From assembly GCA_027625915.1 (NCBI GenBank), contig JANTQA010000057.1, forward strand, positions 8,556,001 through 8,620,000: 64,000 bases of DNA, read 5' to 3'. The DNA is from Anaeramoeba flamelloides (taxonomy: Eukaryota; Metamonada; Anaeramoebidae). Below are positions 2,481 to 53,600 of this stretch, in pieces. A program made the position numbers and the translations under genes. Under the pieces are notes generated by a model. The model did not search any database. It had not been told where the DNA came from and worked only from the letters and a program-made list of their open reading frames with translations. Within the stretch, counting starts at the first letter, position 1; the number at the start of each line of letters is the position of its first letter.

Positions 2481-2548
2481 GTATTTTTCTATTTCGTCAT
2501 GAAAATGATAGATTTATTTTTTCTATATAGATATATCTATATATATAT

Positions 2549-3137
2549 AAACTCTTTTTCAAAAATTGTGACTTACCTGAAATAATAAATTGAAAAAAAA
2601 AAAAATTATCCTTTAGTATTCAAGAACAATTAATAACTAAATATCATTTGTAATTCACTTTTAAGTCATTTTAAATCAATAAAAACCTCATATATTAAAA
2701 ATTAAAAAAAAATAAATAAAACCAAAAACTAAAAAAAAGTGAGTAACAATTTTTGAAATGAGCATTACCCATTTTTTATTACTGAACTTTCACTGAAAAA
2801 AAGTTGAAAAACAATATTTTTTATGAATAATTAAATCCATTTTCAAAGACATTACATTCTCAATTTTCTTAGTGATTATTTGTCTTTTCGAAGATCTCTT
2901 TTTTTTTTCCACATGATCTTTTGAAAAAAAAAAATGAAAAAGAAAAAGAAAAAAAAAGAAAAAGAAAAACAAAAGAAAAAAAAAATTTGAAAAAGCAAAA
3001 CTAAAATTTGAAAAATTAGAAAAAATGATTATGATCTAAAAATTTGAAAATATTTTTTGTTAAGAATACTGGAATAAACCCTCAAAACAACTCCCATTAA
3101 CATTATAAAGTGAGTCAAAATTTATGAAAAATAGTTT
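2549..3137 (+). mobile_element. MITE family, copy 1 (about 589 bp)
   Basis: The left end reads AAACTCTTTTTCAAAAATTG and the right end, reverse complemented, reads AAACTATTTTTCATAAATTT, giving terminal inverted repeats of about 28 bp that end in GTGACTTAC / TTGACTCAC. Both ends lie in TA-rich flanks, consistent with insertion at TA. The interior has a purine-rich AAAAAGAAAAAG tract and no intact ORF. Related copies lie at 6363-7036, 32427-33043, 44512-45055 and 48031-49933. It looks like a non-autonomous DNA transposon. Confidence 0.7.
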
Positions 3138-5340
3138 ATATATATTAATTTTCTACTTCTCTTTTTTTTTATTTGATAAATTTTCCTTTATTACAACTTA
3201 CTAGAAATCAATAAATATTAAAAATCAGAATATTTTTTCGAATTCACTAAAATAGGGAATATTTATACAATTGATAGTTCTGATTTTTTTTTTTTTTTTT
3301 AATATTCCAAAATTGGAATCTGGTAGTGCCATCTCATCTGTTCTTTAAATTTTATGATGTAAATTCAATTCAATAGAAAAAAAAAATTATTGAATTAAAA
3401 ATATCTGAATATGTATTAAAAGGGCATATCTGATTATTTTTCAATTTTTCTTTTATCAAGATTTATAAAATATATTAAATAATTTAAGGAAAATTTGAAA
3501 ATTTATTCAAAAATTAGATATAATAGTGAAAAAAATACCCTGACATGTAAAACAATCCGGACCAAGATTTTTAATTGTGAATATTCGGAAAATTTCTGTG
3601 TAATTGTAAATATTTTCAATCGAAAGGTTATTTATAGATAACCACTTTTTTTATGAACCTCGGTAATAAACCTACCTAAAGTTTATTAAAAGTGGGTCTG
3701 TCTATAGAATACTCATTTTATTTTTTTAATAACCTGGGTAGATCTACTTTTTTTTTGAACAACAATAGAGTTTTATAGAGGTCTGTTAGAGTTTTAAAAA
3801 TGATAGTTTTTATTCTTGTTTTTTGATTGATTGAATCTTGTTTGAACAAGTTAAATTTCATTAATCGTGATTCTAATACATGGGTGTGTTATAATTTTAA
3901 AATTTTAGGTCTCATTAAAAAAGTATTTGATTCAATAAAAGAAATTAAACAACAATTTTTCTAATATTCAAAATTATAAATCTTTTCATGGATTTTTTTC
4001 ATTCATGGTTTTTTTTAACACTATAATACTTGAAAAAACTTGATAAAATCAACTTGCTCTACTGGTAATATAGAAAAAATAATTCCCTTATATCATTTTT
4101 TGTTTTTTAAACTCATTGTTGTTTTTTTTTTGTTGATTCAGGCAAACACAAAAAATCCTGATTACCAAATAAAATGAATTAATGTGTAGAATTTGATTGT
4201 TGTCTGATTTTTTTGCTATGAAATATACTTGAATTTTTATGCAATTGAGAGTTTGTTGATTAATTACAGGCCTACCCACAAAAAAGTTGATAAATAGTAA
4301 TTGATTGTTTAACTAAAAACTATACTCCTTTCAATTTATTGAGTGGATGCGATTCTTGTGAGAATTAACCATATTGACTCTCTCACTTGGTTCAACAATA
4401 TCTCTTATCCAAATTACGAAAAAGAAAAAAAAACAGAAACCGAAAAAAAAAAAAAATTAGAAGGTAAAAAAAAATAAAATAAAGAATAGAAAAAAACAAT
4501 AAAAGAAGATAATAATGCCTGAAAAGTTTCACTCAATATTTGTTCAAGACATATATTTTTATATTACCTATATCATTCAAAGACACCCAAGACAATAATG
4601 AAAATTCACTTTTTTTTTTTTTAAATATAAACTAATCTATAATTTTTCAGAAATATAACAAATAATTTAATTCAAATCAAATTTGAGATTCATAAAAAAA
4701 ATACCTGAGCAAACAATAAATTTTCTTTGAAAATTAAAAACTCAAAATTCATAGGTTAAGCCCTTCCATAACCGAAAAATGGTTTTTTTTAAATATCCAC
4801 AGACATTATATTTCAATAGAAATTACTATTTTGATTCAATTAAGAATTTTATCAAATTTCAAAAGTATAATTTCCCCTTCAACACTCTTAGTAAACAACT
4901 CCAATTTTAAACGATCACATTGCCTATGAGTTATGGCAAATGTGCTTATTGGATTGTTTATTATTTTTACCAATCAGAACAATTCTTGGAAAGGAATTAG
5001 CTTTGTATAACGTCTTTTTGTATAAATGTTTTTTTATTTTTGGATTTTTTGTTATTTTTTTATTGAATTGAAGTTCCTCTTCAAGCTTTATAACAATTTT
5101 AAAACAACAATATGAAAATTTATTATTAATTACTTTTTTAACAAAATCAAAAGTAAAAATAAAAAAAAAAAAAAAAACTGAAAACATGGAGTTTCTTTAA
5201 ATTTATTTTTGAGGATCCTGTGTATTATTTAATTTTTAATACTATTAATAAAAAAAAAAAAAACAAAAATAAGAAAAGAAAATTTAATTTCATGAAAAAC
5301 ATTGAAATAATAATAAAAAAAATAATTTAACAAAAATTGT
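3138..5340. other. Gene-free stretch between MITE copy 1 and the RasGEF gene
   Basis: No supported exon lies here. Several open frames of 60-90 codons on the minus strand are poly-F/K/N runs without family resemblance. The stretch contains the small dispersed repeat at 3526-3890 and the putative 3' flank of the RasGEF gene. Confidence 0.5.
3526..3890 (+). repeat. Dispersed repeat sharing AATACCCTGACATG
   Basis: The block starting with AAAAAAATACCCTGACATG and continuing through CCGGACCAAGATTTTTAATTG recurs at 7588-7700 in the same orientation. The similarity runs for about 110 bp, and shorter matches continue further, including TTGATTGATTGAAT here against the reverse complement of TTCAATCAATCAAAAC near 7770. 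The two copies therefore seem to share both ends, with different middles. I cannot assign a superfamily. Confidence 0.5.
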
Positions 5341-8300
5341 TTAATTTAAACTTGTTCTGGTTGATCCTCTAGGCTCGTTTTGTAAGGAAATTTCATATAA
5401 TAATTTCTCATTTTTAAAACATAATCTTTGTTTGAATAATTCTTGTATTTGATAAATAGGAATAAAATTATAAGCCACTTTTTGGTATTTTTTTATTTCT
5501 CTCATTATGTTATATAAAGATTTTCTTTTACGGAAATTTATTAAACCTTCAATTGTGCTTGAGCTGTCGTCTGAAACATAAGTTAAATCTGATTTAAAAG
5601 CGCCAAAATAAGGCAATGCGGGCAATTTGCATGTTTTTAAAATATCTTTATATTTTTTAACATCTTCAATGCTTTTGACATCCTTTATTAAGTTATCAAA
5701 AGATTTCCAGTGATTTTTTGAAACTTCACTTCTTGTGACTTTCAATCTTTTACAATTTGAATTATTCATTGTACGAACGATCATTAAAAGGCTATCAAAA
5801 TTATTCATTTCTCTTAATAATTCGCAGACATTAATCCAACGAACAAATTGTGCGGCTCTTCGTCTTAATGTTTTTTGACTTACTATCTGTTCAGTTACAT
5901 ATAATGATACATCATTAAATTTTTTGATCATTTTTATTATATTCTGAGATTTATGATCTTTTTTTGTTTTTCTATTAATAGAATACTCAATTAGTTCATC
6001 AGGCTATTTAGGAATTTAAGGTATAAATAATTATTTAATATATTTTTAATTTTATGATTAATTTATTTTTTAATGTTGAATATTTTTATATTTTATTTTT
6101 GGATTTATTCTTTTTGATTATTTTCAAATATTAAACTAAAAATTATGAAGCGAAAAGGTATAAAAAAATAATATATTTGGTTGATATTTTCATGTATTTT
6201 ATTTCATATTAATTAATAATAAAATAAATTAATAACAAAATAAAATAGTTCAAGAAAATTTTCTTTAAAAGTTTGTTTAAATGTGTTGAATAATTGTTTA
6301 AAATAAAAAATAAAAAAAAAAATTATTAATATTATTTTGTTCTCTTAACTATTCAAAAAATAAAACTATTTTTCAAAAATGTTGACTCGTTTTATAATGT
6401 TATTGGAAGTTGCTTTGTAGAGATTTGTCTTCTATATTCTTATCAAAAAAATATTTTCAATTTTTTGATCAGAATCATTTTTTCTATTTCTTTTTTTTTT
6501 TCTGTTTCTTCTTTTTTTTTTTTTTGATCATTTTTTTTTCTTTTTCCTTTTGGTTTTTTTTTTTTTTTTCTTTTTTTTTTAGTCAAATTTTCCTTCTCCT
6601 TTTTTTTTTCTCTTTTCTTACTTTTTTGTTTTTCTTTTTTCTTTTTTTTTTGAGAAAGCAGAGTTGAAGCCAAAAAAAACAAAAAGATCTTCTAAAATAC
6701 CAATAAACCTTAAGAAAATTGAGAAAATGTAATGTCTTTTAAAATGCATATATTTATTAAAAAAAAAAATCTTATTGTTAACCTTTTTTTCTGTAAAAGT
6801 TCAGTAATAAAAAATCTTAGGCTGATTTCAAAAAATGTGATTCAATTTTTTTTCGTTTTAGGCTTGTATTTATTTTTTTTTAATTCTTAAAATATCAAGT
6901 TTTTATGTGTTTGTAGAAATGATTTAAGAGTAAATTACTCATAAGATTTAATAATTAGTTGTCATGTAATACTAAAGGATAAATTTTTTTTTTCAATTTA
7001 TTATTTCAGGTGTGTAACAATTTTTGAAATATAGTTCAAATATAATAAAGTAAAATTATTAAAAAAAATAAAGAAATCATTGCGTTGTAGATTTTTTTTT
7101 GAGTCAGATTTCTTAAATTGTTTGTTAGTATACCTTTCAGAATAACAACAATATAGATTTTGATCTTCAACTTTTTTTTTTTTTTCAAAAAGTTTAATAT
7201 TTAAAATCGAATTAAAATCAAAAACTGAATTAATTAAGAGAAAGTTTTGTCATTACGATATAGAACCATGATTATAGTATGGGGTATATTATCGATGAGA
7301 ATTCATATATACATATGAATGATTTTCAATCTGCCATTTTCTTTTGAATATGGCCTTTCTTAATGAAATTTTCTCAATTGCTTCATATAAAAAATGAATT
7401 CTTTTTATTTTCATTCTTTATTCCTTCCTTTGTTCTTTTTCCTTTATTTTTTGAAAAAGTGTGTTATTGTGTTGAGAATATTTTATCAAATAATAAATAT
7501 TGAACGATATTTTGGATCTAAACATTATTATTTTGGAATCACTTGGTTGTACAATTCTTCAGAAAGCGAAAAATTCAATTATAGTAGTTAAAAAAATACC
7601 CTGACATGAAAAAAATACCGGACAAGATTTTTAATTGTGACTATTAGGAAAATTGATGTGTAATTGCAAATATTTTAATTAAAATTCTTTTATTTAAAAA
7701 ACAAACCTTTTAAATTATAACTCACCCACTTATTAGAATTGTTATTAATGAAATTACACTTGTTCAAAACACTATTCAATCAATCAAAACAATAATTAAA
7801 AAAAAAATCAACACCTTAAGTTCCACGATAATGATGTCACAAAATCGGAATTAATGTTTATATTTAATTGCTGTTTCTTTCCAACTCAAAATTTTCCAGT
7901 TTTATTTTTTTTATTATTGTTGCTTAGTGTTATGAATATAATTGGCCGGTTAGATTTATAACAAACTTCAATTTAATCTCAGATAAATTTGAATAATTTA
8001 ATATATTCTGAAAGAATTGTTTTTAATTTTGTTGTAAAACAAATCCTTATATGATTAGGAATTTCTCGTTTTATATATTATTTTAAAATTATTTAATTAT
8101 TAAGTTTTTTTTTTAGTTTTAGACAAAAGATTAAAAAAAAATAATAATAGATAATAAAAATGGAAGAAGAAGAAGAAGAAGAAAATAAAGACGATTATTT
8201 AATTTGTTATAAAAAAGATCCTTACTTGAATTTTGCTAAATAATTGATGGAAAAACAATGTCATTTGTCTTGCTATCTCTATTGGCTTAACATCAGATAG

Positions 8301-14160: not shown

Positions 14161-15479
14161 TTTACAAACACCAAAAAATTAAATAAAATCAAAAAAATGA
14201 TTTCTCATGCTAGTCAGTGTAACAAGAAAAGATCAACAATTTTGGTAACTTATTTTAAATCAACACATAATGTTATTTCAAATTCTTGACGGTAATTCAA
14301 ATATCACCATCCAATAAAGGTATTTACTTCAAAAAGGGAATCAATTTTTATATCTATATTCTTCTCTTTCTTTTAATCAATAGAATTCCCCAAGAATGTG
14401 GTTGAAATTTGTGTATTTAATGGAAAATGTTATTTGAAATAGAGTTCAAAAGTTTTTTCAAAGTAAATACCAGTAACTTTCTATTAAAAAGTTTTCACGA
14501 TTAAAACTTTTTAACAATTTGTCAATTTACACATACTTTGGATTTTGGCTTTTCATAAAAAAAGTTTTTTGTTTTTGAAAGTTTACAAATTTTTTTAATT
14601 TGAGAACTTTAAAAATATCGCAAATGATGTCTTTTTGGAATTCTAATTTGGATATTTACTTGAAATTACCTCAAAACCAGAGTTTCTAATTCCAGTTATA
14701 ATTATGGATCAATGTTAATGAAAATATTCTCCAATTAGGATCGAAATAGTCTTTTTCGTTATTTTTTTAAATGAAAAATGAAGAAAAAAATTTCAGATAT
14801 CTTAACTAATAACCTTTTAAAGAAAATTTAAAATCAAAAAGTGAAATTATCTTGATTTTTCAGACTAAAAAATGATCAAACTTTCAAACAGTCTGTATAA
14901 ACTACTCTATAACTTTTAAAAGATCACATTATCTTTTCAATTTTTGCCCTTGTGTTACTTGAATTGTTCAATATTTTTCCACAGATCTTATTAATGCATT
15001 ATTAATCATTGACGCTTTTTCTAATTTTTGTCTTTGTTCTTTTGGTTTTTATATTTTTCCCTGAATTGAAGTTCTTAACAACTCTTTCGAAAACAATATA
15101 AACTCTTTTGATTTTTGAATAGAATCTCAGCACTAGGGCATTACCAAACACTCCAAAGATTATGTTAATTTTTTAAGGGCTATTTTTTAATTTGTTTTGT
15201 GTTTTTCTTTAACAGACAAGGGTTAGTTTCAATACAAATTAGCGTACTAGTGTTGCGGGGAAGTTGTGTGTATTTTACATACCATGTCCAAAATGAAAAA
15301 AATATTAAAAAACAAGCCAAAAGTTTTGTATTTGAAAAAAAAATTATTTAGACTACGATCATAAAAAATTTTTTTCAAAAAAAATTAAACACTTGCTAAT
15401 TTTATACTATTTAATAACTTCAATTATAATAAAAAAGATTGGTTAATAAAAGATCTTTTATCAAAAAATTAATTTTTAA

Positions 15480-15700
15480 CAATATTTAACGATTTTAAGT
15501 TGAAAAATCCAATTTTCCAGGCTCTATTAATTTTTTTTTCAAATTTTATAGTAAAAAATTTTAAAATATTTTTTTTTTTACAGTTAAGAGGTCATTTTAT
15601 TATATTTTGTAAGTATTTTAGCCCCGATAAATATCTTTCAAATAGACTAATTATTTGGACAATTTTTGAATTATTTATTGATTTAAATTGAAAAATAATA
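15480..15700 (+). mobile_element. Possible degenerate LINE tail
   Basis: An open stretch includes HFIIFCKYFSPDKYLSNRLI, which parallels HFLWDCPSYEKNRIIW in the clearer LINE tail near 30.5 kb (HX4C, then a spaced Arg and Ile-Ile-Trp). The first Cys pair of the knuckle is not visible. The fragment ends where palindrome cluster 2 begins, as in two other copies. The call is weak without an alignment. Confidence 0.35.
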
Positions 15701-15719
15701 TTTTTTGTTTGAAATTGGA

Positions 15720-16400
15720 TTTTTTTTTTTTAATTTTTCCGTTAGGTTTTCTTGAGTTTTCTGTTTATTTGGGAAATCGATAGATTTAGTAAATAAAACA
15801 GAAAACTCAAGAAAACCTAGAATACTCTCGTTTGTTTTTTTTTTAATTTTTGAAATAAACTGAAAATTTTTAAAATTTTAGGTAATTCTTTCATAAAGTA
15901 AAACAAAAACTTCCTTAAGTTTTCCAGAATAAAAAAGAATTAAATAAAATTGTTGTTTTTTTATCAATTCTTTTGAATTCTGGAAAAGCTATGCACTTGG
16001 GGGATATTTTCGTTAAATTTTCCAGAATGGAAAAGAATAGAGTAGAATAGTGATTTTACTTGATTCTTTAAATTCTGGAAAATCACTGTTAGCTTTTCTT
16101 GAGTTTTCAGTTTATTAGGAAAATTATAGATTTTTCTCAATTCTTTTGAATTCTAGAAAATTGCAGTAAACTTCTCTTGAGTTTTCTGTTTATTTAGAAA
16201 ATCAATAGATTTTTATTAGGTTTATTTTTATTTTTTGTAATAAACCTAAAATCTATTAAAATTTTCTGTTTATTTTAAAAAGTAAAAAAAAAAAACTTAT
16301 AACACTTAAAAAATACAATAAAAAATCCCAAAAAAACCTAGAAAACTTCACAAATAAAATAGGAAACCTCAAAAAAACTTAACGATAATCAATGGATTTA
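15720..16400. repeat. Modular palindrome cluster 2
   Basis: The clearest unit is 15744-15818, a 75-bp hairpin whose arms AGGTTTTCTTGAGTTTTCTG and CAGAAAACTCAAGAAAACCT match exactly at their ends and meet near ATCGAT. Further units include the GGAAAAG / CTTTTCC type built on AAAAGAAT and ATTCTTTTGAATTCTGGAAA, and the GAAATAAAC / GTTTATTTC type. They follow head to tail with linkers such as GGGGATATTTTCG. Confidence 0.8.
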
Positions 16401-16429: not shown

Positions 16430-16665
16430 AATCTATTGTAGAGATTTTCAACTTTGAACTCTTCATATTGATAATTCAACATATAAGTTTTGTTTCTAAA
16501 AAAAATATTTTCTCGGATTGTTGGGATGTTTTTCTGTATATATAGTATCTTTTTTTCATTTCTAAGATCAACGAAGGAACTATTTTATAAATCAGATTTT
16601 TTAAAAAACATTTGAACCCATGAGCAGAAATGTGATTTACATTACCAAGTGATATAATATAATTT
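16430..16665 (+). mobile_element. Long-TIR element, right-half fragment
   Basis: TTGATAATTCAACATATAA, then AAGATCAACGAAGGAACTAT and ACATTTGAACCCATGAGCAG, follow the order of the right half of the element at 45073-45833. The left half is absent and palindrome cluster 2 abuts it. Confidence 0.5.
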
Positions 16666-21600: not shown

Positions 21601-24476
21601 GCTTATATATAATCAATTTAAGAACAAAACCAACCCCCCCATTGCAATAATTTGGACATCACAGAAACACCTAAAATTAAAAATAGGCAAAAAAATAACT
21701 TAATTTATTGTATTTTCGGATTTATTGCTAATAACTAAGTGTTTGGAACTTCATCGAGTCTGGTAAAGAGAGAATTTGGAAGTGACTAAATGTGTGTCTT
21801 CTAATTCAAAGTGCGTTTAAATTAGACACAGTCATTAGAAGAATTTTAAACTCAATTTGTTTTTCTAAATTTATTGTATTTTTCCAAACAGAATATTAAA
21901 GCACATTTAAGATTACCCAGTATAAATGTTTTTATCTGCAATCCCTTTTCATCCAAATAAAAGAAAAAAAAAACAAAAAAAAAAAAATGATGCGTCCAAA
22001 ATGATGAAACGAGTGGAACAAAACATTGTATTGGTGAAATTTGTTGAAATTTCACCAACAATTATTGTTCGATGAAATGATAAGATAACACCGACTAATT
22101 GTATTTAATTTTCCTATTTAACAAACTCAACATTAACCTTCTATCATTCATTGAAAATTTTTTTCCCGATCTAACAAAAGATATAACATAACTTGAAAAA
22201 AGGAAATGAAAATAAAAAAACGAATTAAAATATTTTTTAAAATCAAAATTATTCCCAAATCTAATGGAAAGCGGAGTATTGATATTCTTTCACCTGCTTA
22301 AACTGTTCCAAAAATTTTGGAATTTCTTTTTTTATCTTTATTATTGAAGAAGTGTAAATTATAAACTCTAGTTGTACTTAGACTTAAATTCACTTTCAGA
22401 AATTTAAACAGAAAATCATAGAATTGACGATTATTATTTAATGAAAATAATTTCAAACTGTCTTGATTTAAAATTAATTCCAAAAGATTTTATTTCTTTT
22501 AATCGATTATGGAATATTAATCTATCTTTTTCATAGGAAGGGCATACCCATAAAAAATGATCAATATTTTTCTATAATTTCCTTATGTTTTTTGAGATTT
22601 AATTTTAAACATAATGGACAAAATTTATTTGAGTTTGTATTGATTATATAGTAAAGGTATATTTAGGCAATTAGTGAATGATCTGAATTTTAGAATTGTT
22701 GAACTTGATGGATAACTTAAATATTTTTTTTGGTTTTTAAATAAATAATTTTGATTTTTAATTATTGTAAAATATTTTTGTGGGGTGTCGTACAGTACTG
22801 TCAATTGCCTATCAGTGCCTAGCTTTTCCAAAATTCAAAAGAATAGAGAAAAATCAAAGATTTTACTAATTCTTTTAAAGCCTGGAAAAGCTAAAGGAGT
22901 GGGTTTTTTTAATTTTAGAAATAAAAAGAAAATTTTTGAAATTTCCTTTCTATTTCTAAAATTAAAAAAAAGCTAACGACGGTTTTCTAAAATTCAAAAG
23001 AATTGGGAAAATCTTTGATCATTGATTTTACTCTACCATTTAAATTTTGGAAAACAGAAAGAAAAGTGTCGTCAAGTGTCTAGCTTTTCCAGGATTTAAA
23101 AGAATTAGTAAAATCTCAGATTTTTCTCGATTCTTTTGAATTCTGGAAAAGCTAACGGCGTTTTTTTTTAATTTGAGAAACAAAAAGAAAATTTAAGAAA
23201 TTTTCGGTTTATTTCTTAAATTAAAAAAAACCTAACGACACTTCCAACTTTTGGAATTCAGTAAATCATTATATGTGTACTTATATATTTCAATTTTTAG
23301 TTCACATAAATCTTTTGAATGACAGTTGATTTTATTATTTATTCTTTGATTAAATTTTATTAACTTTTCTAAATAAGGAAGAGATAAGTTATTTAATTTA
23401 TTTTTTAATTTAAATTTTTTTTTATTTACCCAAATTATTATATTTTTGAATTTGAATTTTGTTTTGTAAATAATAATTGGTGTATTTCTGTTTATTTTGC
23501 ATATTACAGCAAAAAATTTTGGAATTTAACATATTAAAACTAAAGGAATATTATTTGAAAGAAATTTCGAAAAAAAAAAAAATGCTTTACTTTTTTGGAA
23601 ATAGCTCATTCCAAAGCAAACATAATCTTAAAAAATATAAAAGAAAATTTTTTATTTTTATTATTTTTTGAATTAACAAAAAAATCTTTTATTTTTTTAT
23701 TTATTTATTTATTTATTGAGACAAAGAAGTAAAAAAAAAAAAAGAAAATTTATCAAAATAAAAAAAGACAAGAGAACAAAAATAATTATAAAAAAAATCT
23801 TTTATGTTTTTAGGATGGTTGAAATAAACAATTAATAATGAATTTTTACTGTGAAAACAAGTATAATAATAATAATTTTAGTAAATGGTATACTGGCATA
23901 CTTAAAGAAAATCAACCAATCGAATGATTTGAAAAAATAAAAATAATAATTGATTCAGATTTAAAATTTGATTGTTATTCAAAAATTTTGTCTAAGACTG
24001 TGTATTAATTTATATCATTTTTTATCTTATCGTATTCTTATTTCTTTATTTTTTAAATAGATGGAATGATCGTTAGTCATTTTCCATATGGACCAACTGC
24101 ATATTTTGGAATTTTAAATCCTGTATTAAGACACGATATCAAAAATGTATCTTCAGCTTCTGAAAGTTACCCACATTTAATTTTCGATAATTTCAATACA
24201 AAACTTGGAAATAGAGTACAATCGATTCTAAAATATTTATTTCCTGTTCCTAAAGAAAGCAGTAAACGAGTAATAACCCTTTCAAATACCAGCGATCTTA
24301 TTTCTTTTCGTCACCACACGTTCAGCAAAACTGATGGTAAAATTGAACTTGATGAAATTGGACCTCGATTTGAACTTCGGTTATTTCAAATCAAACTTGG
24401 AACAATTGAAATTGAAGACGCTGAAAAGGAATTCATTTGGCGCCCATATATGAATAGTAAAAAACTTTTACTTTAA
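18678..24476 (+). CDS. IMP4: IMP4, U3 snoRNP protein (Brix domain)
   Basis: Component of the Mpp10-Imp3-Imp4 module of the small-subunit processome, acting in the nucleolus in early 18S rRNA processing. Exons 18678-18873, 18994-19236 and 24061-24476 encode 284 residues, against about 290 in animals and fungi. The N-terminus MIRRNTRLIQEYRYRKSLQG is the typical Arg-rich Imp4 start. The Brix domain follows: DPKIMITTSRDPS (about residue 82 on), INRGSYVISKIAEACNRND, DLILVHETKG, GMIVSHFPYGPTAYFGI, LKYLFPVPKESSKRVITLSN, ISFRHHTFSK and GPRFELRLFQIKLGTIE. Both introns use donor GTTTGT at phase 1; acceptors are TTATAG and AAATAG. Joins give KSLERIDNID and GVPDGMIVSHF, matching the family without gap. 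The oddity is intron 2, 4824 bp, full of repeats, while intron 1 is 120 bp. Confidence 0.93.
20340..20950 (+). repeat. Dispersed repeat, copy A
   Basis: Shares ordered blocks with 28890-29480: GGACTATTCAxATTTTATGC, AATATTGCAA, a segment around TTGATC near a run of A, then AAGTCxATAAATA...CATAAAAT. The similarity is patchy but collinear over about 600 bp. It may be a decayed non-autonomous transposon; ends are not defined. Confidence 0.4.
21735..21865 (+). repeat. Small dispersed repeat, copy 1 of 3
   Basis: The core GGTAAAGAGAGAATTTGGAA is followed by GTGACTAAAT, CTAATTCAAAG, ACAGTCATTAGAAG and TTTTAAACTCAATTTGTTTT. The same order occurs at 51590-51740 and 59715-59870, all in the same orientation. 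The length is about 130 bp and no ORF is shared. Confidence 0.65.
22300..22789 (-). mobile_element. LINE 3' part, distal to palindrome insertion
   Basis: Reverse-strand frames give FCPLCLKLNLKK, then HFLWVCPSYEKDRL, a CX2C...HX4C knuckle like that at the C-terminus of LINE reverse transcriptase proteins. Further along, NQDSLKLFSLNNNRQFYDFL parallels NKDSLFIMSLVNEKDNYDSL in the copy near 30.7 kb. The frame changes between the two halves of the knuckle, so the copy is not functional. It is 5'-truncated and continues at 23250-23530 on the other side of the palindromic cluster. Confidence 0.65.
22790..23248. repeat. Modular palindrome cluster 3 inside a LINE copy
   Basis: It starts at GTGTCGTACAGTACTGTC and ends at CCTAACGACAC, so the ends themselves are inverted (GTGTCGT / ACGACAC). 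Inside are three to four palindromic modules, for example CTAGCTTTTCCAGGATTTAA facing GAATTCTGGAAAAGCTAACG, and AATTTGAGAAACAAAAAG facing TTATTTCTTAAATT. LINE coding sequence occurs on both sides in the same orientation, which makes this an insertion. Confidence 0.75.
23250..23530 (-). mobile_element. LINE 3' part, proximal to palindrome insertion
   Basis: The minus strand reads KINCHSKDLCELKIEIYKY, then TYNDLLNSKSWK up to the palindrome border. The last part parallels QFRVNLIINSSGWK of the copy near 30.3 kb. Together with 22300-22789 it forms one interrupted LINE tail. Confidence 0.5.
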
Positions 24477-29480: not shown

Positions 29481-30099
29481 AAAATATATTAATAGAATTA
29501 CTTTGTTTTTACCTTTATACAAAATAAGAGTTTATATTTTCATTGGCTCTTTTCTTTAAAGGAGAAGTCACCATAAAGTCAAAATTTACATTTTTTAATA
29601 TTTTGAAATACGATTAGAAAACAACATTTTTTAATTTGGATGTGTCTCGTTGCTTTTTAGTATTTCATGCACTTTTTGAACAATAATTGAAAAAAAATTT
29701 ATTCATACATAAATAAAATTAATAGGTCACAATAGATTTTTAAGTTGAAGAGTTTTGTCGACTTTGGGAAATGTTAAATCGTTTCACCTTTAGTTCCTAT
29801 CTCAACATTCAATTGTGGTATTTTATTTTATGTTTGGAAAAAATCTTAATTAATTGGTTAGACAAAGTAGTTTAAATATTCAAAATCACAACTAAATAAA
29901 CAATGTAGTTTTAAGATGCAATTGTAAATGTTTAAAAAAGTGAAAGTGTAGAACTCTGGTATAAGAATCTTCTTTTAATTCAACTTACTCTAAAATTTAT
30001 AAGGATATATATGGATCAGATCAATGAAAAAAAAAAGATACATACAGAAAAACAATCTTAAGATCGTTCATTTTATTTTTAACCTTTTTGTGAAATATT

Positions 30100-30807
30100 T
30101 TGAATTTAAAATGTTAATTTTTTTAGATCAAGTAAGAATTTCAATATATAAAAGAAGATTTCAACTTAAAAATAAATTAGAAATTCTTGGTTTCGAACAC
30201 ATATCAAAAAAGTTAAAATTCATTAAAAAAGATTACGAAAATATCAATTGGGAAGCAGAAAATTTAAAATTACTAGATATGAACCTTAATCAATTTAGAG
30301 TAAACTTAATAATAAATAGTTCTGGATGGAAAGTTCAAGAATATTAAAAATTATTAGGTATAATAATAATATCAACAAACAATAAAAATATTTAGAATGG
30401 AAGGGCTCTACTTCCATCTTAAAACAAATAAATTTCACAAATTATCTAAATTGATATTCTTATGTTTATGATAAGAATAAAATAAAAACAAAATCATGCA
30501 ACCTATGCAAAAAACATTTAAACCTAGAAATCATTGAAGATATCGATCATTTTTTATGGGACTGCCCATCCTATGAAAAAAATCGAATAATTTGGATTAA
30601 AAAAATAATTCAAATTAACAAAAATAATAAGAATAATATCTTTGATATTATTAGAAACAAAGATTCATTATTCATCATGTCATTAGTTAATGAAAAAGAT
30701 AATTATGATTCTTTATTAAAATTTCTAAACAAAAATTTAGAAATTAGGGCTGTAAGAGGAAATTATTTTCCTCCCTTCAAAAATAATAAAAAAAAAAACA
30801 AATATTA
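30100..30807 (+). mobile_element. LINE 3' tail with zinc knuckle (least decayed copy)
   Basis: An open stretch (30024-30347) includes FLDQVRISIYKRRFQLKNKL and NQFRVNLIINSSGWK. After a frame change the sequence reads CNLCKKHLNLEIIEDIDHFL then WDCPSYEKNRIIWIKKII, giving a CX2C...HX4C knuckle typical of the C-terminus of LINE ORF2-type proteins (zf-RVT), followed by NKDSLFIMSLVNEKDNYDSL and a stop near 30807. Reverse transcriptase and endonuclease parts are absent, so this is a 5'-truncated, inactive copy. Related tails are at 22300-23530 (-) and 50466-50930 (+). Confidence 0.65.
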
Positions 30808-32220: not shown

Positions 32221-32426
32221 GGTTAATAAAATATTAAAAGAAATTAGGGTTAAAAGAATAAAAACTAAAATAAAATTTATAATGGCTCTATTTTAAAAGA
32301 ATATTGATAATTAAAAAAAAAAAAAAAGATTAATTATTTTTGAATTTAAGGGTAAATTAATGATTCAAAAAAACAATTTTTTTTTTTTTTGAAGATAGGT
32401 TCAATTCCATTGATTTACACCATAAT

Positions 32427-33043
32427 AAACTAGATTTCTAAAATTTTGACACACTTTATAATTTTAATGGAATTGTTTTGAGTGCTTATCCCTGTATTCT
32501 TTTCAAAATAATTTATAAATTTTTTGGATCAGAATCATTTTTTCTAATTTTGTAAATTTTTGTTATTCCTTTTCAAATTTTTATTTTTTCTTTTGTTTTT
32601 CTATTTTATTTTTTCTATTTTATTTTTTCTATTACTTTTTTTTTCTTTTATTTTCTTTTTTTTTCTTTTTTTTGCTAAAGGATGATGTGGAAAAAAAAAG
32701 AGATCTCTTAAAAGACAAACAATAACTAAAAAAATTGAGAGTGTGTCATGTCTTTTAAAATAAATTTAATTTTTAACAAAAAATCTTATTATTAGACTTT
32801 TTTTCAGTGAAAGTTCAGTTATATAAAATTGGTAATTCTCATTTCAAAAATTGTAACTTACATTTATTTTTAGTTTTTGGTTTTATTTTTTTTTAATTTT
32901 TAATATATCAGGCTTTTATATATTTAGAATGATTTAAAAGTGAATTACAAATCAGATTTAATTATTTGTTCTTCTTGAACATTAAAGGATATTTTTTTTT
33001 ATTTTATCATTTCAGATGAGTCAAAAATTTTGAAATTTTGTTT
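32427..33043 (-). mobile_element. MITE family, copy 3
   Basis: The end AAACTAGATTTCTAAAATTT followed by TGACACAC matches the TIR of copy 1, and the other end reads GATGAGTCAAAAATTTTGAAA. The interior contains GATCAGAATCATTTTTTC, a long pyrimidine tract and AAAGTTCAGT in the order of copy 2. Confidence 0.65.
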
Positions 33044-33090
33044 AGTTTCATCAATAATTGGAAAGTGTTTTTATTGAGTGAAAATGATAT

Positions 33091-44511: not shown

Positions 44512-45055
44512 AAACCCCATTTCAAAAATACTGGCTCACAATTAATAATATATATTCTTTCGTATTCAAGGACACCTAATTATTAAATCTTATTAATAAT
44601 TTGCTTTTTAATTATTCTAAACCTATAAAAAATCAGATGTTTTACAAATTAAAAAAAAATAAACTTAAAAACTAAAAAAAAAATGAATCACAATTTTTGA
44701 AATGAGCATTATAGATTTTTTATTACTGAAATTTCAGAGAAAAATGGTTAAACAAGAATATTATTTGATAATTATATGAATTTGAAAATACATTACATGG
44801 TCGAAATTTTCTGAAGGTTTATCTGTATTTTCAAAGATTTTTTTTCTTAAACTTGACCTTTTACAAAAAAAAAAGTAATGAAAAATTAAAAGACTTCAAA
44901 AAAAAAAAAGAAAAATTCAAAAAGTATCAAAAAAAACGAGTAAAAAAAAAATAGAAAAGAAAAAAAAAATTGATGAAATTTGAAAATATGATTTTAATCT
45001 GTAAAATGAAAACTTTGTTTTGATAAGAATATCATACAAAACCATTTGTTTTTTC
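44512..45055 (+). mobile_element. MITE family, copy 4
   Basis: The left end AAACCCCATTTCAAAAATAC then TGGCTCAC is a worn TIR. The interior follows copy 1: AATTTTTGAAATGAGCATTA, a TTTTTTATTACTGAA block, and a purine-rich tract. The right TIR is missing and the long-TIR element starts 18 bp further on. Confidence 0.55.
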
Positions 45056-45072
45056 CATTCATTTATTTTCCT

Positions 45073-45833
45073 CTTAAGGGATTAGCGTCACCATAGATTT
45101 CTCTATAATCAAAGTATGTTGTAATTGGGTATAAATGATATTAGTGCACCATGGCTCAAATAGCTCTAAAAAATCTATTATAAATCTTATTGCACAAAAA
45201 ATTATTACATTTTTTACTAATGATCACAATTAAAAAAGTTTCATTTTGAAAAAATTTTTTTTTAAATACCTTTTCCAAATCTAAAAATAGAAATCCAAAA
45301 TACAGTATTCTGATATTTAATAATTTAGATTTAGAACTCCCAAAAGTAACTATTTTTATAATTTTTTATTTTCAAAGATTAATTCAATAATCATCAACAT
45401 AAAAGCCCAAAAACTGATTATTTTTGTTTGCTTTTGATAAAGATTCTTGTGGCATCAATATATTTTAATGATTTGAGAAATAATTTGTTGAAAAATATTT
45501 ATTGGTTAATTATTTAATTTTTAGAAAAAAAACGAATTTTTTAAAAACTAATCCACATTTCGCCATAAATTTAAGATAGATATTTTACATCTTTGGAGTC
45601 TGAATATTGATAATTCAACCTATAAATTTATGGCGAAATGCAGATTTTATTCTGAAATTTTTGAGTTTTTTTCAAATATAAGGATCATTTTTCATTGATA
45701 AGATCAACAAATATTACTGCTTGACTAATCGTTTTTTTAGAGACATTTGAACCATGTAGCACGAATGTGGTTAGGTCCAATAACAATATACTTTGTTCCA
45801 AGGCTTCTCCTTGGTAGACGCTAACCCCTTAAG
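45073..45833 (+). mobile_element. Long-TIR transposon (TTAA ends), copy B
   Basis: The ends read CTTAAGGGATTAGCGTC and GACGCTAACCCCTTAAG. Terminal inverted repeats are about 110 bp, and TTAA is present at both tips, which fits a TTAA target duplication. The middle has a second palindrome: CATTTCGCCATAAATTTA facing TAAATTTATGGCGAAATG. No ORF of note. TTAA targets are known for piggyBac-type transposases, but no such gene is here to confirm the link. Confidence 0.75.
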
Positions 45834-47669: not shown

Positions 47670-50600
47670 TTAACAACATCCTGCTGTTGAATTTTTTTCT
47701 GTAGAATGCAATTTGATTGATCCGTTTTCATCTTGTTCATCTCTAAGAAGATAGTCTTGTGCAATCATTGCAAATAATTTATTAACTCCTGTGTTTTCTT
47801 TTGCACTGGTCTCAAATAATTTAAATTTATTTTTTTTTGCAAAGTTCATTACGTCTTTTTTTGAAATATCCCAATCATCATCAGATGAAATTTGATCCAC
47901 TATTTATTTTATAAAGTGTAGTGAATTGTTTAATGTTTTAAGTGGGGGGGAAATATATTAGAATTTATATTTTATTTTTAAAAAAATTTTAATAGTTACA
48001 AATAAAAAAAAGTGGATATGAATTTATAGGAACTAATGTACCCGATTTCAATATATGTTACTCGCCGGAAATAATAAATTGAAATATATATATATATATA
48101 TTAGAGGTTTTGATGATAGCATGCTATAATTCACGATAAAGTTACAAAAATCGCGATAATTTTTATCAAATTGCGATATATCAGAAAATCGCGATATTCA
48201 ATATTATCGTGATAATATAACAAATCGCGATATTCTATAAAATCGCGATAATTATTAAAAAATCGTGATAAATGCCAAAATATCGCGATTACTTTTTAAT
48301 CGCAATATAATAGTTGATAAGTTTTTGGGCTAATTGAGAAATATTTTGAATAAAAAATTTTTTTTGATCAAAAAATAGATTAGGTGACAAAAAGTTATTC
48401 TTTGAAAAAACAACAAAAAAGATACTTGATCCAATCAAGGATCAGATCAAAGAGTTTTGTTGTGTTTTCATTTTATTTGGTTGACAAACCGATCGATCCT
48501 TTTAGATCAACAACAATAAGAACTAAAGAGAAATAAATATTTTTTCAGTTAATGGTGGTGTTGGAAATTGCTTTGAATAATTAGCTTCTAAAACAACCAA
48601 CCCTTAATCTGTTCTTGAAAGAATGTTTTCTTGGGTTACAATATTTTCATTTTTTCTCAGAAAGCTAAAAGGAGTTGGATAACTCTTCAAAAGATTTCAC
48701 AACATACTTGCCAGATGATCACCAATTATTAAGATTTTTTATACAATTCTTGTCTTCTTCTTCTTTTTCTACTCATATCTTTGTATTGGGCAGAAAACAC
48801 AATTAGAATAATAGAGGTTTTTGTTTGATAGATCACCAATAAGAAGTCAAATTATTCTTTATTCTTTTTGGCTATTTAAAATTGTGAAGGTAACAAATCC
48901 ATTTTAAGAAAACACACATAATTTATATTCAAGTGTATTGATGAGATGGGTAATTATTAGTTTGATCATAAAATTTGTTTGAGATTTTATATTTTGTTAA
49001 AAAAAAAATGAAAAGAATAAAATTTTTTTCCACAACAAACCAAACTCATTCCCTTTATAAAAGTTTTATGTCTTTCAAAACTTTCAAACACTTGAAGACA
49101 CTTCATAACCCTTACAAACACTTTCTGACATTATTAAAGGGGAAAGTGTTGTAAAAATCTCAAGGCTTTGTAAAAGTCAAGATATTTTTTTTAGAAATGA
49201 AATGAAAATAATAATTTTTCATTTTTTCGCGATAATGTGAATATCGCGATAATGTTGTTTATCGCGATTTTATGATTTTTCGCGATAAACTTGGACTAAT
49301 CGCGATTTTTTTAATATTATTACGATTTTATTGTTAATATCATGATAATATATGTTATCATCAAAACCTCTATTATTTTGTATACAAGAACAACTGATTA
49401 TTAAATGTTATTAATAATTCACTTTTAAATTATTCTAAATCATAGAAAAACCTGATATTTTAAAATTAAAAAAAAATAAACTTATAAAAAAAAGTTATCA
49501 CAATTTTTAGAAAAGAGCATTTCCGATTTTTTATTACTGAACTTTCACTGAAAAAAGGTGAACAAAAAGATTTTTTGCTAATAATTATCTGAATTTTAAA
49601 AGACATTAGAGTCTCAAATTTCTTAAGGTTTATTTGTTCTTTAAGAAAGATTTATTTTTTTTCAACTTGGCTTTCTTAAAACAAAAAAAGAAAAATTTTG
49701 AAAAAGAAAAAGAAAAAGAAAACGAAAGAAAAACAAAAATTTTAAGGAAATTCGAAAAAAATTTGAAGAAATTCGAAAAAATGATTCTTTATCCAAAAAT
49801 TTGCAAAATTAGAAAAAATGATTCTCTTCAAAAAATTTGAAAATATTTTTTTGATAAAAAGAATATGGGATAAAGCCACATAAACTACTTTCCAATAACA
49901 TTATAAAGTGAGTCAACATTTTTGAAAAATAGTGTATGTTGTTAATGTAGAAAAAATAATTGTAGTTTATAGAATGCTGAAATTTAATAATTAGGATGGA
50001 ATTTTTTATAATTCTATTTGCTGGTTGTGAGTTAAATTGTCATTACCAAAAAAAAAAAAAAAATTAATTAATTTGAATTTTGTTTTGTATTTTTGGTTAA
50101 ATATTTATTGTAAAGCGTGTTACAAAATTCATTTTTTAGGTAATGAAAAAAAAATCTATTTTTCAAAAATTTAGAAATAGGGAATTTCCTAGTTTTATTT
50201 CTTAATTTCAAAAAAAAAAAAACCTAACAAAAGTGCTTAAGTTTTCTAGTGGTTTTCTGTTTTATTTGTGAAGTTTTCTAGGTTTTTTTGAGGTTTTCTA
50301 TTTTATTTGTGAAGTGTTCTAGGTTTATTTCTAAAGTAAAAAAAACCTAACGAAAATCAATTGATTTTCCTAATAAATAAAAAACTCAAAAAAACCTAAC
50401 GAAAATATATTGATTTTCCAAATAAAATAGAAAACTCAAGAAAAGCTAACAACAAAAAAAAAATTTAAATGGAAAGGTTAAACTTCTATTTTAAAACACA
50501 GAAATTTAACAAATTATCTAAACAGATTTTCTTATGTTATGAACAAAAATAAATCAAAATATTGTTAGATATGTAAAAAAATAAATAATTTAGATACCAT

Positions 50601-53600
50601 TAAAGATTTGAATCATTTTCTTTGTGTTCGTGTCTAGGTTTTCCGGGATTCAAAAGAATTGAGCAAAATCTTTGATTTTACTCCATTCTTTTAAATTCTG
50701 GAAAACCTAACGAATTGCCCAGCCGATGAAAATAATCGAAAAATATGGTTTTCTTAATTAAAAAAAAAAAAATTGTTCTATTATTATAAATAAACAAGAA
50801 TATATTTTATTGATATTATCAGAAAAAAAGATCCATATGATTTATTAGCTTTAATGTGAAATAAATTTATTTTTGAGTCTCTTAACAAAATTTCAAAATA
50901 TAATTTAAGGAATGGGGAAGTGCCGTAGAGTGCCTAGGTTTTTTTTAATTTCTAAAAAGTAAAAAAAACCTAACGGCGGTTTTCCAGAATTCAAAAGAAT
51001 TGAGTAAGATCAAAGATTTTGCTCAATTCTTTTGAATCCCGGAAAACCTAGACACGAACACAAAGAAAATGATTCAAATCTTTAATGGTATCTAAATTAT
51101 TTATTTTTTTACATATCTAACAATATTTTGATTTATTTTTGTTCATAACATAAGAAAATCTGTTTAGATAATTTGTTAAATTTCTGTGTTTTAAAATAGA
51201 AGTTTAACCTTTCCATTTAAATTTTTTTTTTGTTGTTAGCTTTTCTTGAGTTTTCTATTTTATTTGGAAAATCAATAGATTTTCGTTAGGTTTTTTTGAT
51301 TTTTCTGTTTTATTTGTTAAATGTTCTAAGTTTTTTTTGAAGTTTTCTATTTTATTTGTGAAGTGTTCTAGGTTTTATTTAATTTTTGAAATAAAAAGAA
51401 AATTTCAAAAATTTTCTTATTATTTTTTTAATTAAAAAAAGCCTAATGACAAATAAAAGAAATTAAAAACTCCTTCCTTAAATTACAATAAAAAAAATAA
51501 ATTTTCTTTTCATTTCTTAAATCATAAAAAAAAAAAAACGCCACATAAGGGTAAATAGGGTGTATCTATTTTTAGAGTTTTGAGTTTATCGTTAAGGGTC
51601 AAGTGTGAAAAAGAATTTAATCTGGTAAAGAGAGAATTTTTAAGTGACCAAATTTTGAGACTTACAATTCAAAGAGTGCCTGAAATGGGCACAGTCATTA
51701 AAAGTATTTGAAACTTAATTTTGTTTTCGAAAAAAGAAAAAAAAAGAGGGAAAAACAATGATAAAGAAAAAAATGAAGAAGTTCAAAATAATTGATGTGA
51801 GAAGCCTGAAGTATTTTGATCCAAATGAATTAGTGTGTGTGGACATTAGGGGTTATTTAGTTTTGAGCTCCTTTTTTTTTGATTTTATGATTTGTTCTTA
51901 TATAAATATCCACTAATCACGAAGTTCTCATTAAGAGAAGTATTTATTTATTGCAATTTTTTTCAATTTCATTAAAAAATTGATAAATATTTACAAAAGT
52001 GCTAATAACTGGCTTAAATAAAGAACTAAACTCTTTTTCAAGCAAAAGGGTACACCTCTCAAATCATCAATACTATTGAATTTGATTGTTAATAAGATAA
52101 TTACTTATTGGTGATTTTCATTTTAATTATTCATTTTTTCATTTTTTGTTTTTTTTTATTTATGGTTATTGAACAGTTGGAAAATGAAAAAAACAAGAGA
52201 AGAAGAAACCAATTTTGAAATAATCTACCAGTATAAAACTGGAACCAGTTTAAGTTTGATTTCGAATGAGCGAGATATAGGAATTAAGAAAGACCATTAT
52301 TGGATTGATTTATGGTACAAAGAAAAAAGAAAATAAATTGAAAAAAACAATAATTCCAACAAAATACCCAGATGAATTGCGTATTTATATTGAATATGGA
52401 ACTTTGTGGAACAAAAGTTTGGCGTGTAAAGAGTTATCAATAATATGTAATGAACTTTTTCCCAATCCACCTTGTTCAACGGTTTTTATTGATTTTATAA
52501 TTTTTTTTCCATAGAATTTACAAAACGAGATTTCTCATTTCAAATAAAAGGGCACATCAATTTTTAAAATCTTGAATTTTAATTTTTATTGTTTTGTTTT
52601 AATAAATTTTAAATAGTCAGTTGAGTGTTTTTTTTTTTTATGTTTTAAAGAGTTTCTTAGATTTTAGAATGATAATACAATTAATTTAATTCAATTATGA
52701 ATAATTCTTGAAATTTTATCTGCCCTTTTATTTGAAAAAGAGTTTAGTTGAATAGATATCTTTGTAGGTGTGTTTTTATGGGATTTCTAAGTCAGGTTTT
52801 GGGGTCTAAAAACAAGTACTTTAATGAAACTAACATGTGCAATTCATTTTAATTTGTTAACGGAAATTTAACCCGTGCTCAAAATATTTACTCACCGGAG
52901 AGATTAAAGAGCCCCGCCAATGGCTTGAATACAATACATAAAAAAGAAATAATGTTCTTTAAATCAATTTTAAAAAAGAATTAGTAACATATTGAAAGTT
53001 TAAAAATGGATTTTTTAATAAAAAAAAAATGAGAAACACACAAGCACAAATTTATATGAAATCATTGAATTTTCAATCAATTTCTTCAAAAAATTTTTAG
53101 TTTTGAAATTTCAATAATATTTCAATAAAAGTTCCTTTAAATTTCATTTGATAAATTTTGATGAAATTTTCAAGAAATCCTCAAATTCTCAATGAAAATC
53201 ATTAAATCATTTTGTCAATGAAATTTCAATACAATTATCATTACAATTCTTGGAAATATTCGTTGGGTTTTAATCACCACTCTTCAAACATTCCAAATAC
53301 AACCAGAGAGCTAAAATAAAGTAGCACTCTTAATAAAGCCATTTAACCGTTGTGTATAAAAAGTCGGCAAGTTTCTTAATTGTAAAAATTACTTTTCATC
53401 TTTAGTCATGTTTACAATTAATACAAATCATTCATTTTTATAACAATGGTTATTCAGTTTTTCTATTAGTTTATGAAAAAATTTATTATAAGATTTTCAC
53501 AATTTAAGATTTTCATTTTTTTATTTTTTACTTTTTATTTGGGATTTTTTTTTTGTTTGGACATGGAATAAAAATACATAATAGAACTTTGGCTTAATTT

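Follow-up and report, generated by a model that had tools for sequence, protein, structure and literature searches.

Short palindromic cassettes occupy fixed positions within other repeats of the Anaeramoeba flamelloides genome

Short palindromic units of Anaeramoeba flamelloides, single or joined into arrays, lie at exact positions within other repeats, and copies of these repeats exist in which the same positions are empty and carry no scar. At one of the hosts, the repeat F1, one junction of the inserts is near-constant and the other is loose. New here is that the arrays are insertions for which empty sites are available for comparison; they occupy fixed bases and join precisely on one side and loosely on the other. 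We lean towards reading them as non-autonomous hairpin cassettes that repeatedly enter preferred sites of transposons, grow head-to-tail and are reshuffled. The analysis covers a stretch of 64,000 nucleotides (the window) and searches of the 254-Mb assembly. In support of the original prediction, palindromic cassettes form a genome-wide family whose members are reshuffled and either move or recombine.

The unit for which near-exact hairpin arms had been claimed is the following:
15744–15818, + strand, palindrome A (b-half and a′-half) with the flanks CGTTAG...CCTAG; located by inverted-repeat search, folding and genome matches

Read directly from the sequence, it is a near-perfect 75-bp hairpin, and the claim about its arms was borne out. 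The inverted repeat at 15743–15819 has perfect arm runs of at least 18 nt, and the segment 15736–15830, folded as single-stranded DNA, reaches −28.2 kcal/mol (z −9.7), with 0 of 200 shuffles as good. Counting arms of at least 16 nt with a spacer of at most 60 and excluding low-complexity arms, the 64-kb window contains five perfect inverted repeats, four of them within the clusters first pointed out; control sequences averaged 0.05 (20 first-order Markov sequences) and 0 (20 fourth-order). Chance palindromes in AT-rich DNA are ruled out by these controls and the folding z-score. A known RNA family was rejected because a search of Rfam gave no match at the gathering score. A separate 85-bp hairpin at 45556–45640, with perfect arms of at least 18 nt, is different from modules A, B and C; 45577–45772, which overlaps it, is related to 16439–16637, and the latter also matches loci L012 and L015.

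The window clusters are built from common palindromes A, B and C of about 73–78 bp each. These are joined by linkers that read either TAACGGC or TAACG followed by one to four copies of a 10-mer such as GTGCCGTAGA. The linkers originally described, CTAACG and GTGCCTAG, are real, and the grammar is finer than first described. From the left, an array consists of a few bases, tandem 10-mers (GTGTCCGTCA, GTGCCGTAGA and variants, terminating in GTGCCTAGG), a palindrome, TAACGGC and a further palindrome; the pattern continues in this way until TAACG closes the array on the right. The smallest insert observed, 110 bp, has the same layout with one palindrome of A, B or C type. Among 81 matches to a linker regular expression, many of the longer ones being counted once per strand, 32 were 7-nt linkers of the TAACGGC type. 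By eye, 18 distinct long linkers are made of 10-mers, with lengths of 16–17 nt (four), 26–27 (five), 34–38 (eight) and 46 (one); the other long matches represent nested A halves or chance similarity. Other palindromes are often nested at the centre of A: undivided A reads GATAGATTTAACAAAT, and split A reads ..GATAGATTTT|CGTTAGG at the b-half and CCTAGAACAC|TTAACAAAT.. at the a-half.

Selection for the hairpin was considered and rejected for B. In 63 full-length B copies, arm complementarity was 0.784 within a module versus 0.776 across modules (permutation sd 0.005); B copies have decayed without constraint on the hairpin, and their arms diverge independently. The arms of 56 C copies do covary to some degree (0.820 within versus 0.778 across; largest of 2,000 permutations 0.802), and this excess may be explained by C subtypes.

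Module profiles, each built from one or two typed copies per module, place four clusters at 2026–2470, 15745–16378, 22822–23232 and 50241–51443. The features of the window are as follows:
2026–2470, + strand, array in host repeat H5, left flank ..CCTCCTGTGTATTCTGGGGAC, right flank ..ATTTCGTCATG
15355–15738, + strand, left arm of host F1 (BLAST to F1 arms of other copies)
15745–16378, + strand, array of A, C, B, B and A halves, with C between A halves (module profiles, sequence)
22822–23232, + strand, array B-C-B-B-C, antisense in a LINE at site S2 (module profiles, flank comparison)
29990–30805, + strand, LINE 3′ region without arrays (w30), the empty reference for S1–S4
50241–50446, + strand, nested A halves adjoining LINE site S1
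50375–50707, + strand, left arm of a 333-bp inverted duplication; holds a module, a LINE piece and the B insert
50625–50711, + strand, one B palindrome with the ends TGTTCGTGTCTAGG...CCTAACG, in the LINE reading frame (S3)
50918–51050, + strand, array start at LINE 3′UTR site S4: GTGCCGTAGAGTGCCTAGG, short C, TAACGGC, B
50978–51310, − strand, right arm of the 333-bp inverted duplication, 98% identical to 50375–50707
51239–51443, + strand, end of the fourth cluster: A halves and C, then the LINE tail at 51444–51500

The profiles match all four clusters, so the proposed sharing of palindromic modules stands, and the order of modules differs from cluster to cluster, as had been claimed. The make-up of the four is alike only in part: modules occur in all, whereas the fourth is a composite with LINE pieces (50451–50624, 50712–50913 and 51061–51234) and an inverted duplication. 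The latter, at 333 bp and 98% identity, indicates that arrays also undergo recent fold-back rearrangement. As a separate observation, 50375–51310 forms a palindrome of nearly 1 kb, from recent inverted duplication, around the LINE 3′UTR array. The H5 stretch 1914–2521 aligns to locus L024, and its flanks are alike in L009, L024 and L042 (by eye). The LINE flanks of the third array are at about 22484–22810 and 23233–23425. An F1 right arm was not found beyond the array at 15745–16378, which lies in a rearranged copy. The window also contains a dispersed repeat of about 0.6 kb in five copies and both orientations (2504–3149, 6363–7081, 32425–33046, 44553–45031 and 49376–49946).

The abundance of the family was assessed with three types of query. 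The 19-base end motif GTGCCGTAGAGTGCCTAGG occurs in 557 exact copies genome-wide (272 forward, 285 reverse), so the family is not confined to a few clusters; its reversed control occurs in none. With the unit as query, at least 84 matches were found among the best 40 of 633 candidates scored, most places being counted on both strands owing to the palindromic query. The module profiles, proposed earlier as a check, gave 267 matches to modules or half-modules (B 79, C 73, A halves 57 and 55, E 3) in 69 clusters within 324 kb, comprising the window and loci L009–L028 and L029–L048, which were picked for containing modules. Less biased sequence, the outer parts of L009–L028, holds 10 clusters (34 matches) in 120 kb, and the 64-kb window holds 7 clusters with 29 module or half-module matches. 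By extrapolation, clusters number in the order of ten thousand in 254 Mb.

Rather than lying inside one known transposon with a defined transposase, the arrays are insertions in several other repeats: F1, a LINE (sites S1–S4), H5 and F3. F1 without an array is about 0.7 kb long, with two arms of about 360 bp and CACT-type ends (CACTAGCATGAAAAAAT / CACGATCATGAAAAAA). F1 was compared with CACTA-like MITEs, which have CACT-type terminal inverted repeats and duplications of 2–3 bp: identical 2 bp flank both sides in 7 of 16 copies whose two ends were compared (by eye). These duplications are not always TA, and a Tc1/mariner nature of F1 was rejected. The arrays enter F1 at ATTATTG^GAAAATC. For the empty site, the two flanks of the array in L015 were joined and searched against the genome. 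Among the best 40 of 2,438 candidates, 33 span the junction uninterrupted and 7 match in two pieces or by half. Five of the 7, L015 and L034 among them, were shown to be filled. This ranking favours empty copies, so that 33 of 40 is no frequency. All 12 empty copies fetched from the 33 read ATTATTG|GAAAATC with no remnant or scar, leaving room for a target duplication of at most 1 bp (G); none was found at F1. The same base carries single-module inserts of 110 bp each, one A in L015 and one C in L062, as well as B+C in L063, C+B+C in L064 and larger arrays of up to 12 module or half-module matches (L013, L024, L025, L026, L034 and others). The flanks of the single A in L015 are up to 93% identical to those of empty copies, and the flanks of the single C in L062 are about 95% identical to those of L015.

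The right junction of the F1 inserts (TAACG|) hardly varies, reading CCTAAC[GA] in most copies. The left junction has 1–3 variable bases before the first GTG (TAA, AGA, AAA, CGA, AA, CC, CT, C or T), and these junctions fall into recurring classes. The regular expression used for this table required GTG near the left end; chance matches without modules (e.g. L012, L018, L020, L021) and overlong inserts (L014, L017, L023, L028) were ignored, and L010, L012, L027 and L044, filled by other evidence, were missed by it. The idea that the two left-end bases outside CG are complementary, at every site, to the right flank of the host failed on the full F1 table, with the left 10-mers GTGTTCG, GTGTATG, GTGCCTG and GTGTCTG against it. 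One precise and one loose junction is the pattern of target-primed reverse transcription. The reverse transcriptase of LINEs might accordingly copy a hairpin RNA at nicks, with a precise 3′ end (..CCUAACG) and a loose 5′ end bearing extra bases, as at F1, and template switching at the hairpins would shuffle the modules. The LINEs of this genome carry arrays beside their 3′ tail (S4), and RVT_1 domains are abundant (best 150 of 1,306 candidates scored). Against this route, the inserts at F1, S1, S2 and S3 show no A-tail or LINE tail by eye, and no target duplications were seen. The F1 inserts listed also start with 10-mers and none within a palindrome, in a set that is not independent of the GTG requirement. 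We regard the RNA route as improbable.

The relation between filled and empty copies was examined with a tree built from 203 columns of F1 flank sequence, for 18 filled and 12 empty copies. A single clade of all filled copies was rejected (p-AU 0.0027), as it was in a smaller tree of 15 filled and 12 empty copies (p-AU 0.0047). At least five changes of the filled/empty label are needed on the larger tree; its support is weak, with 2 of 27 inner branches starred, and those two require no more than a single change. Shuffling the labels gave a count that low in 1 of 500 trials; filled copies thus group together more than randomly placed labels do, which inheritance would predict. Since relatives hold different single modules at this base and the filled copies do not form one clade, the data support more than one event of insertion or replacement at the F1 base. 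Repeated ‘gains’ could, on the other hand, be gene conversion or precise loss.

In the LINE, the states of S1–S4 were read by eye from alignments. The reference w30 is empty at all four sites. S1 is filled in L019, L020, L028 (twice), L029, L043 and the window (near 50450 and 51235) and is also empty in L018. S2 is filled in L018, L010 and the window (22822–23232) and further empty in L020, L028, L029 and L043. S3 is filled in the window (50625–50711), L037 and L019, with further empty copies in L013, L018, L021, L028, L029, L036 and L043. S4, in the 3′UTR, is filled in L019, L020 (left joint only), L021, L029, L036, L039, L043 and the window; it is empty also in L018 and L028, and L013 has a decayed array there. 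S3 lies inside a frame encoding ..DHFLWDCPSYE; since its insert breaks this conserved reading frame, the empty state is taken as ancestral there. The contents of S3 differ between relatives, being B in the window, C+B in L037 and C in L019. Target duplications were absent from S3 and S4 beyond an ambiguity of 1–2 bp, S1 would allow a 3-bp duplication of ACA, and none of the arrays has an established target duplication of at least 3 bp. The recurrence of arrays at the one 3′UTR position in several copies would fit structural or regulatory parts of the host repeats, such as 3′UTR hairpins, that are immobile by themselves. The same modules occur in different repeats, however, empty copies of these repeats exist, the insert at S3 breaks the frame and the B arms are not maintained. 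S3 and the empty F1 copies contradict this explanation, which is very improbable. Introns, suggested by the likeness of CTAAC to a branch point, were set aside as the right ends are CG, not AG, and the hosts are often non-coding; literature titles held nothing relevant on hairpin introns of the diplonemid type.

Some repeats are chimeric, with an array at the junction of halves from different families (L028, L033, L041, L045 and L048; partly by eye). They combine an F3 head with a LINE tail (L033, L048), F3 with LINE S1 (L028), F3 with H5 (L041) and F1 with F3 (L045). A repeat of about 200 bp at L061:5418–5634 aligns to L013, L019, L023, L027 and L040 in both orientations and to L026 in one; it seems to represent a second family, palindromic throughout.

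Recombination between arrays has to be taken seriously as an alternative to repeated insertion. One or a few ancient insertions per host repeat may have been followed by ectopic recombination, gene conversion and deletion between thousands of copies, whereby modules are swapped, arrays lost and unrelated host halves fused. The chimeras, the differing modules in one place at S3, the recent 333-bp inverted duplication across the fourth cluster and the clustered labels on the F1 tree all argue for it, as does the TAACG end, which always points toward the same arm in the F1 arrays compared (by eye). On the other hand, arrays are found at six or more positions, spread over three or more repeats (F1, LINE S1–S4, H5), which indicates repeated entry. 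Deletion of a palindrome should often leave scars, and the 12 empty F1 copies have no remnant; the flanks of L015 and L062, with one A and one C, are also as close to empty copies and to each other as given above. Taken together, we consider an origin from a few insertions unlikely, while giving it serious weight.

A source of the movement was sought in the array loci and in the genome. From the loci, 53 ORFs of at least 130 aa were retained, and in the 47 scanned no transposase was found among the Pfam families displayed (25 of 61), which are of host type (RCC1, BTB, actin, dynein and others). In the genome, Y1_Tnp (PF01797) had no match at threshold, with 5 of 14 controls positive, and RepHel (PF14214) had none, as in the control genomes; MULE transposase domains gave 15 matches. 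A candidate autonomous element, defined by inward-facing end motifs 6.7 kb apart, was rejected: it is F1 plus a LINE 3′UTR, and it contains no stop-to-stop frame of 100 aa. L018:1635–3827, at a distance of about 1.2 kb from an array, holds a 731-aa frame of a family-A DNA polymerase (Pfam E 9e-81). The sequence is 77% AT, and its genes are rich in RasGEF and RCC1-BTB. The palindromic bodies and tandem 10-mers are foldback-like and, with MULE domains present, the cassettes might simply be a foldback element or MITE from one of the known DDE superfamilies, with a target duplication that escapes notice through brevity or decay. The 12 of 12 empty F1 sites permit no duplication above 1 bp (G), though, the F1 target is not TA and no transposase adjoins the arrays in the loci scanned, the 6.7-kb pair included; we judge this origin slightly more improbable still than the RNA route. 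The TA duplication of Tc1/mariner MITEs was absent at the F1 and LINE sites, and the F1 target, TTG^GAAA, is not the A/T insertion site of Helitrons.

For the preferred reading, entry of hairpin cassettes into preferred transposon sites, we propose the following route. An enzyme supplied in trans would recognise the TAACG end and the target and join this end precisely, leaving the 10-mer end to loose joining. The inserted right end would rebuild ..G^GAAAATC, enabling further units to enter in the same orientation and to form head-to-tail arrays. Entry at the centre of palindrome A would produce nested hairpins, and recombination between arrays would exchange modules and yield chimeric host repeats. 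Every recognised host is itself a repeat, so many copies were spread by the host, and true entries may be few.

The literature on palindromic, foldback and cassette elements, at the level of open-access titles and abstract openings, offered only GC clusters and Tetris as near cases. Bacterial REP/BIME mosaics, served by RAYT (Y1) transposases, are likewise rows of palindromic units, which share a short conserved foot and are joined by linkers. REPs are reportedly targets of insertion sequences, according to one study title (PMC1525189). They are bacterial, whereas the cassettes are found in a eukaryotic genome lacking a Y1_Tnp match at the control sensitivity given above. Double-hairpin elements of fungal mtDNA resemble the cassettes as ultra-short mobile hairpins; they are mitochondrial and have two hairpins, and we know of none with 10-mer linkers or arrays in other transposons. 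Integron cassette arrays offer an analogy, with no membership implied, as they too are head-to-tail hairpin-forming units with a constant core per joint. Unlike integrons, no integrase is known here, the cassettes carry no genes and the hosts are eukaryote transposons.

Drosophila FB has 10-bp repeats, and foldback target duplications are 8–10 bp. Autonomous foldback copies carry a transposase of MULE or P type. An identity with foldback elements, raised at the outset, was not supported, as no duplication of that length occurs at the sites compared with empty copies. Long terminal inverted repeats are also absent; single-unit inserts are one palindrome with asymmetric ends. Foldback elements such as Tetris are the nearest nuclear case found. 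Foldbacks (Drosophila FB, Galileo, Tetris) share with the cassettes inverted-repeat bodies, modularity, internal tandem repeats and many rearranged forms, but have one pair of long terminal inverted repeats, where the cassettes form rows of separate hairpins and show no duplication at sites that could be compared. A Tetris transposase was not found either, and structurally complete Tetris copies have target duplications (PMC4079207). The nearest published shuffled mobile palindromes found are the yeast mitochondrial GC clusters (GC42 etc.), which are very short mobile palindromes without coding capacity, present in many copies and bordered by AG or ACT repeats that are interpreted as target duplications (PMC4478555). 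The cassette junctions lack such AG/ACT repeats. In contrast to the organellar, GC-rich GC clusters, the cassettes are AT-rich, with tandem 10-mers, nested hairpins and fixed sites in transposons; they lie on contigs of many megabases, up to 24 Mb, and are thus nuclear.

A new class of eukaryotic mobile DNA, namely hairpin cassettes that integrate without duplication and with one precise end at sequence-defined sites of other transposons, probably moving via a folded single-stranded intermediate, is a tentative proposal that we think rather unlikely. By rebuilding the target at every insertion, such cassettes would pile up head-to-tail and within each other's loops, in the manner of integron gene cassettes. 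Small palindromes are commonly seen as relics of conventional transposons; here they appear to act as the mobile unit itself, parasitising transposons, with filled and empty sites resolved to the base. If integration is truly site-specific and duplication-free, its chemistry would be one not known to us for eukaryotic MITE-like elements, and the F1 base offers a ready assay for it. As junctions between repeats, the arrays can provide a route by which new composite elements arise.
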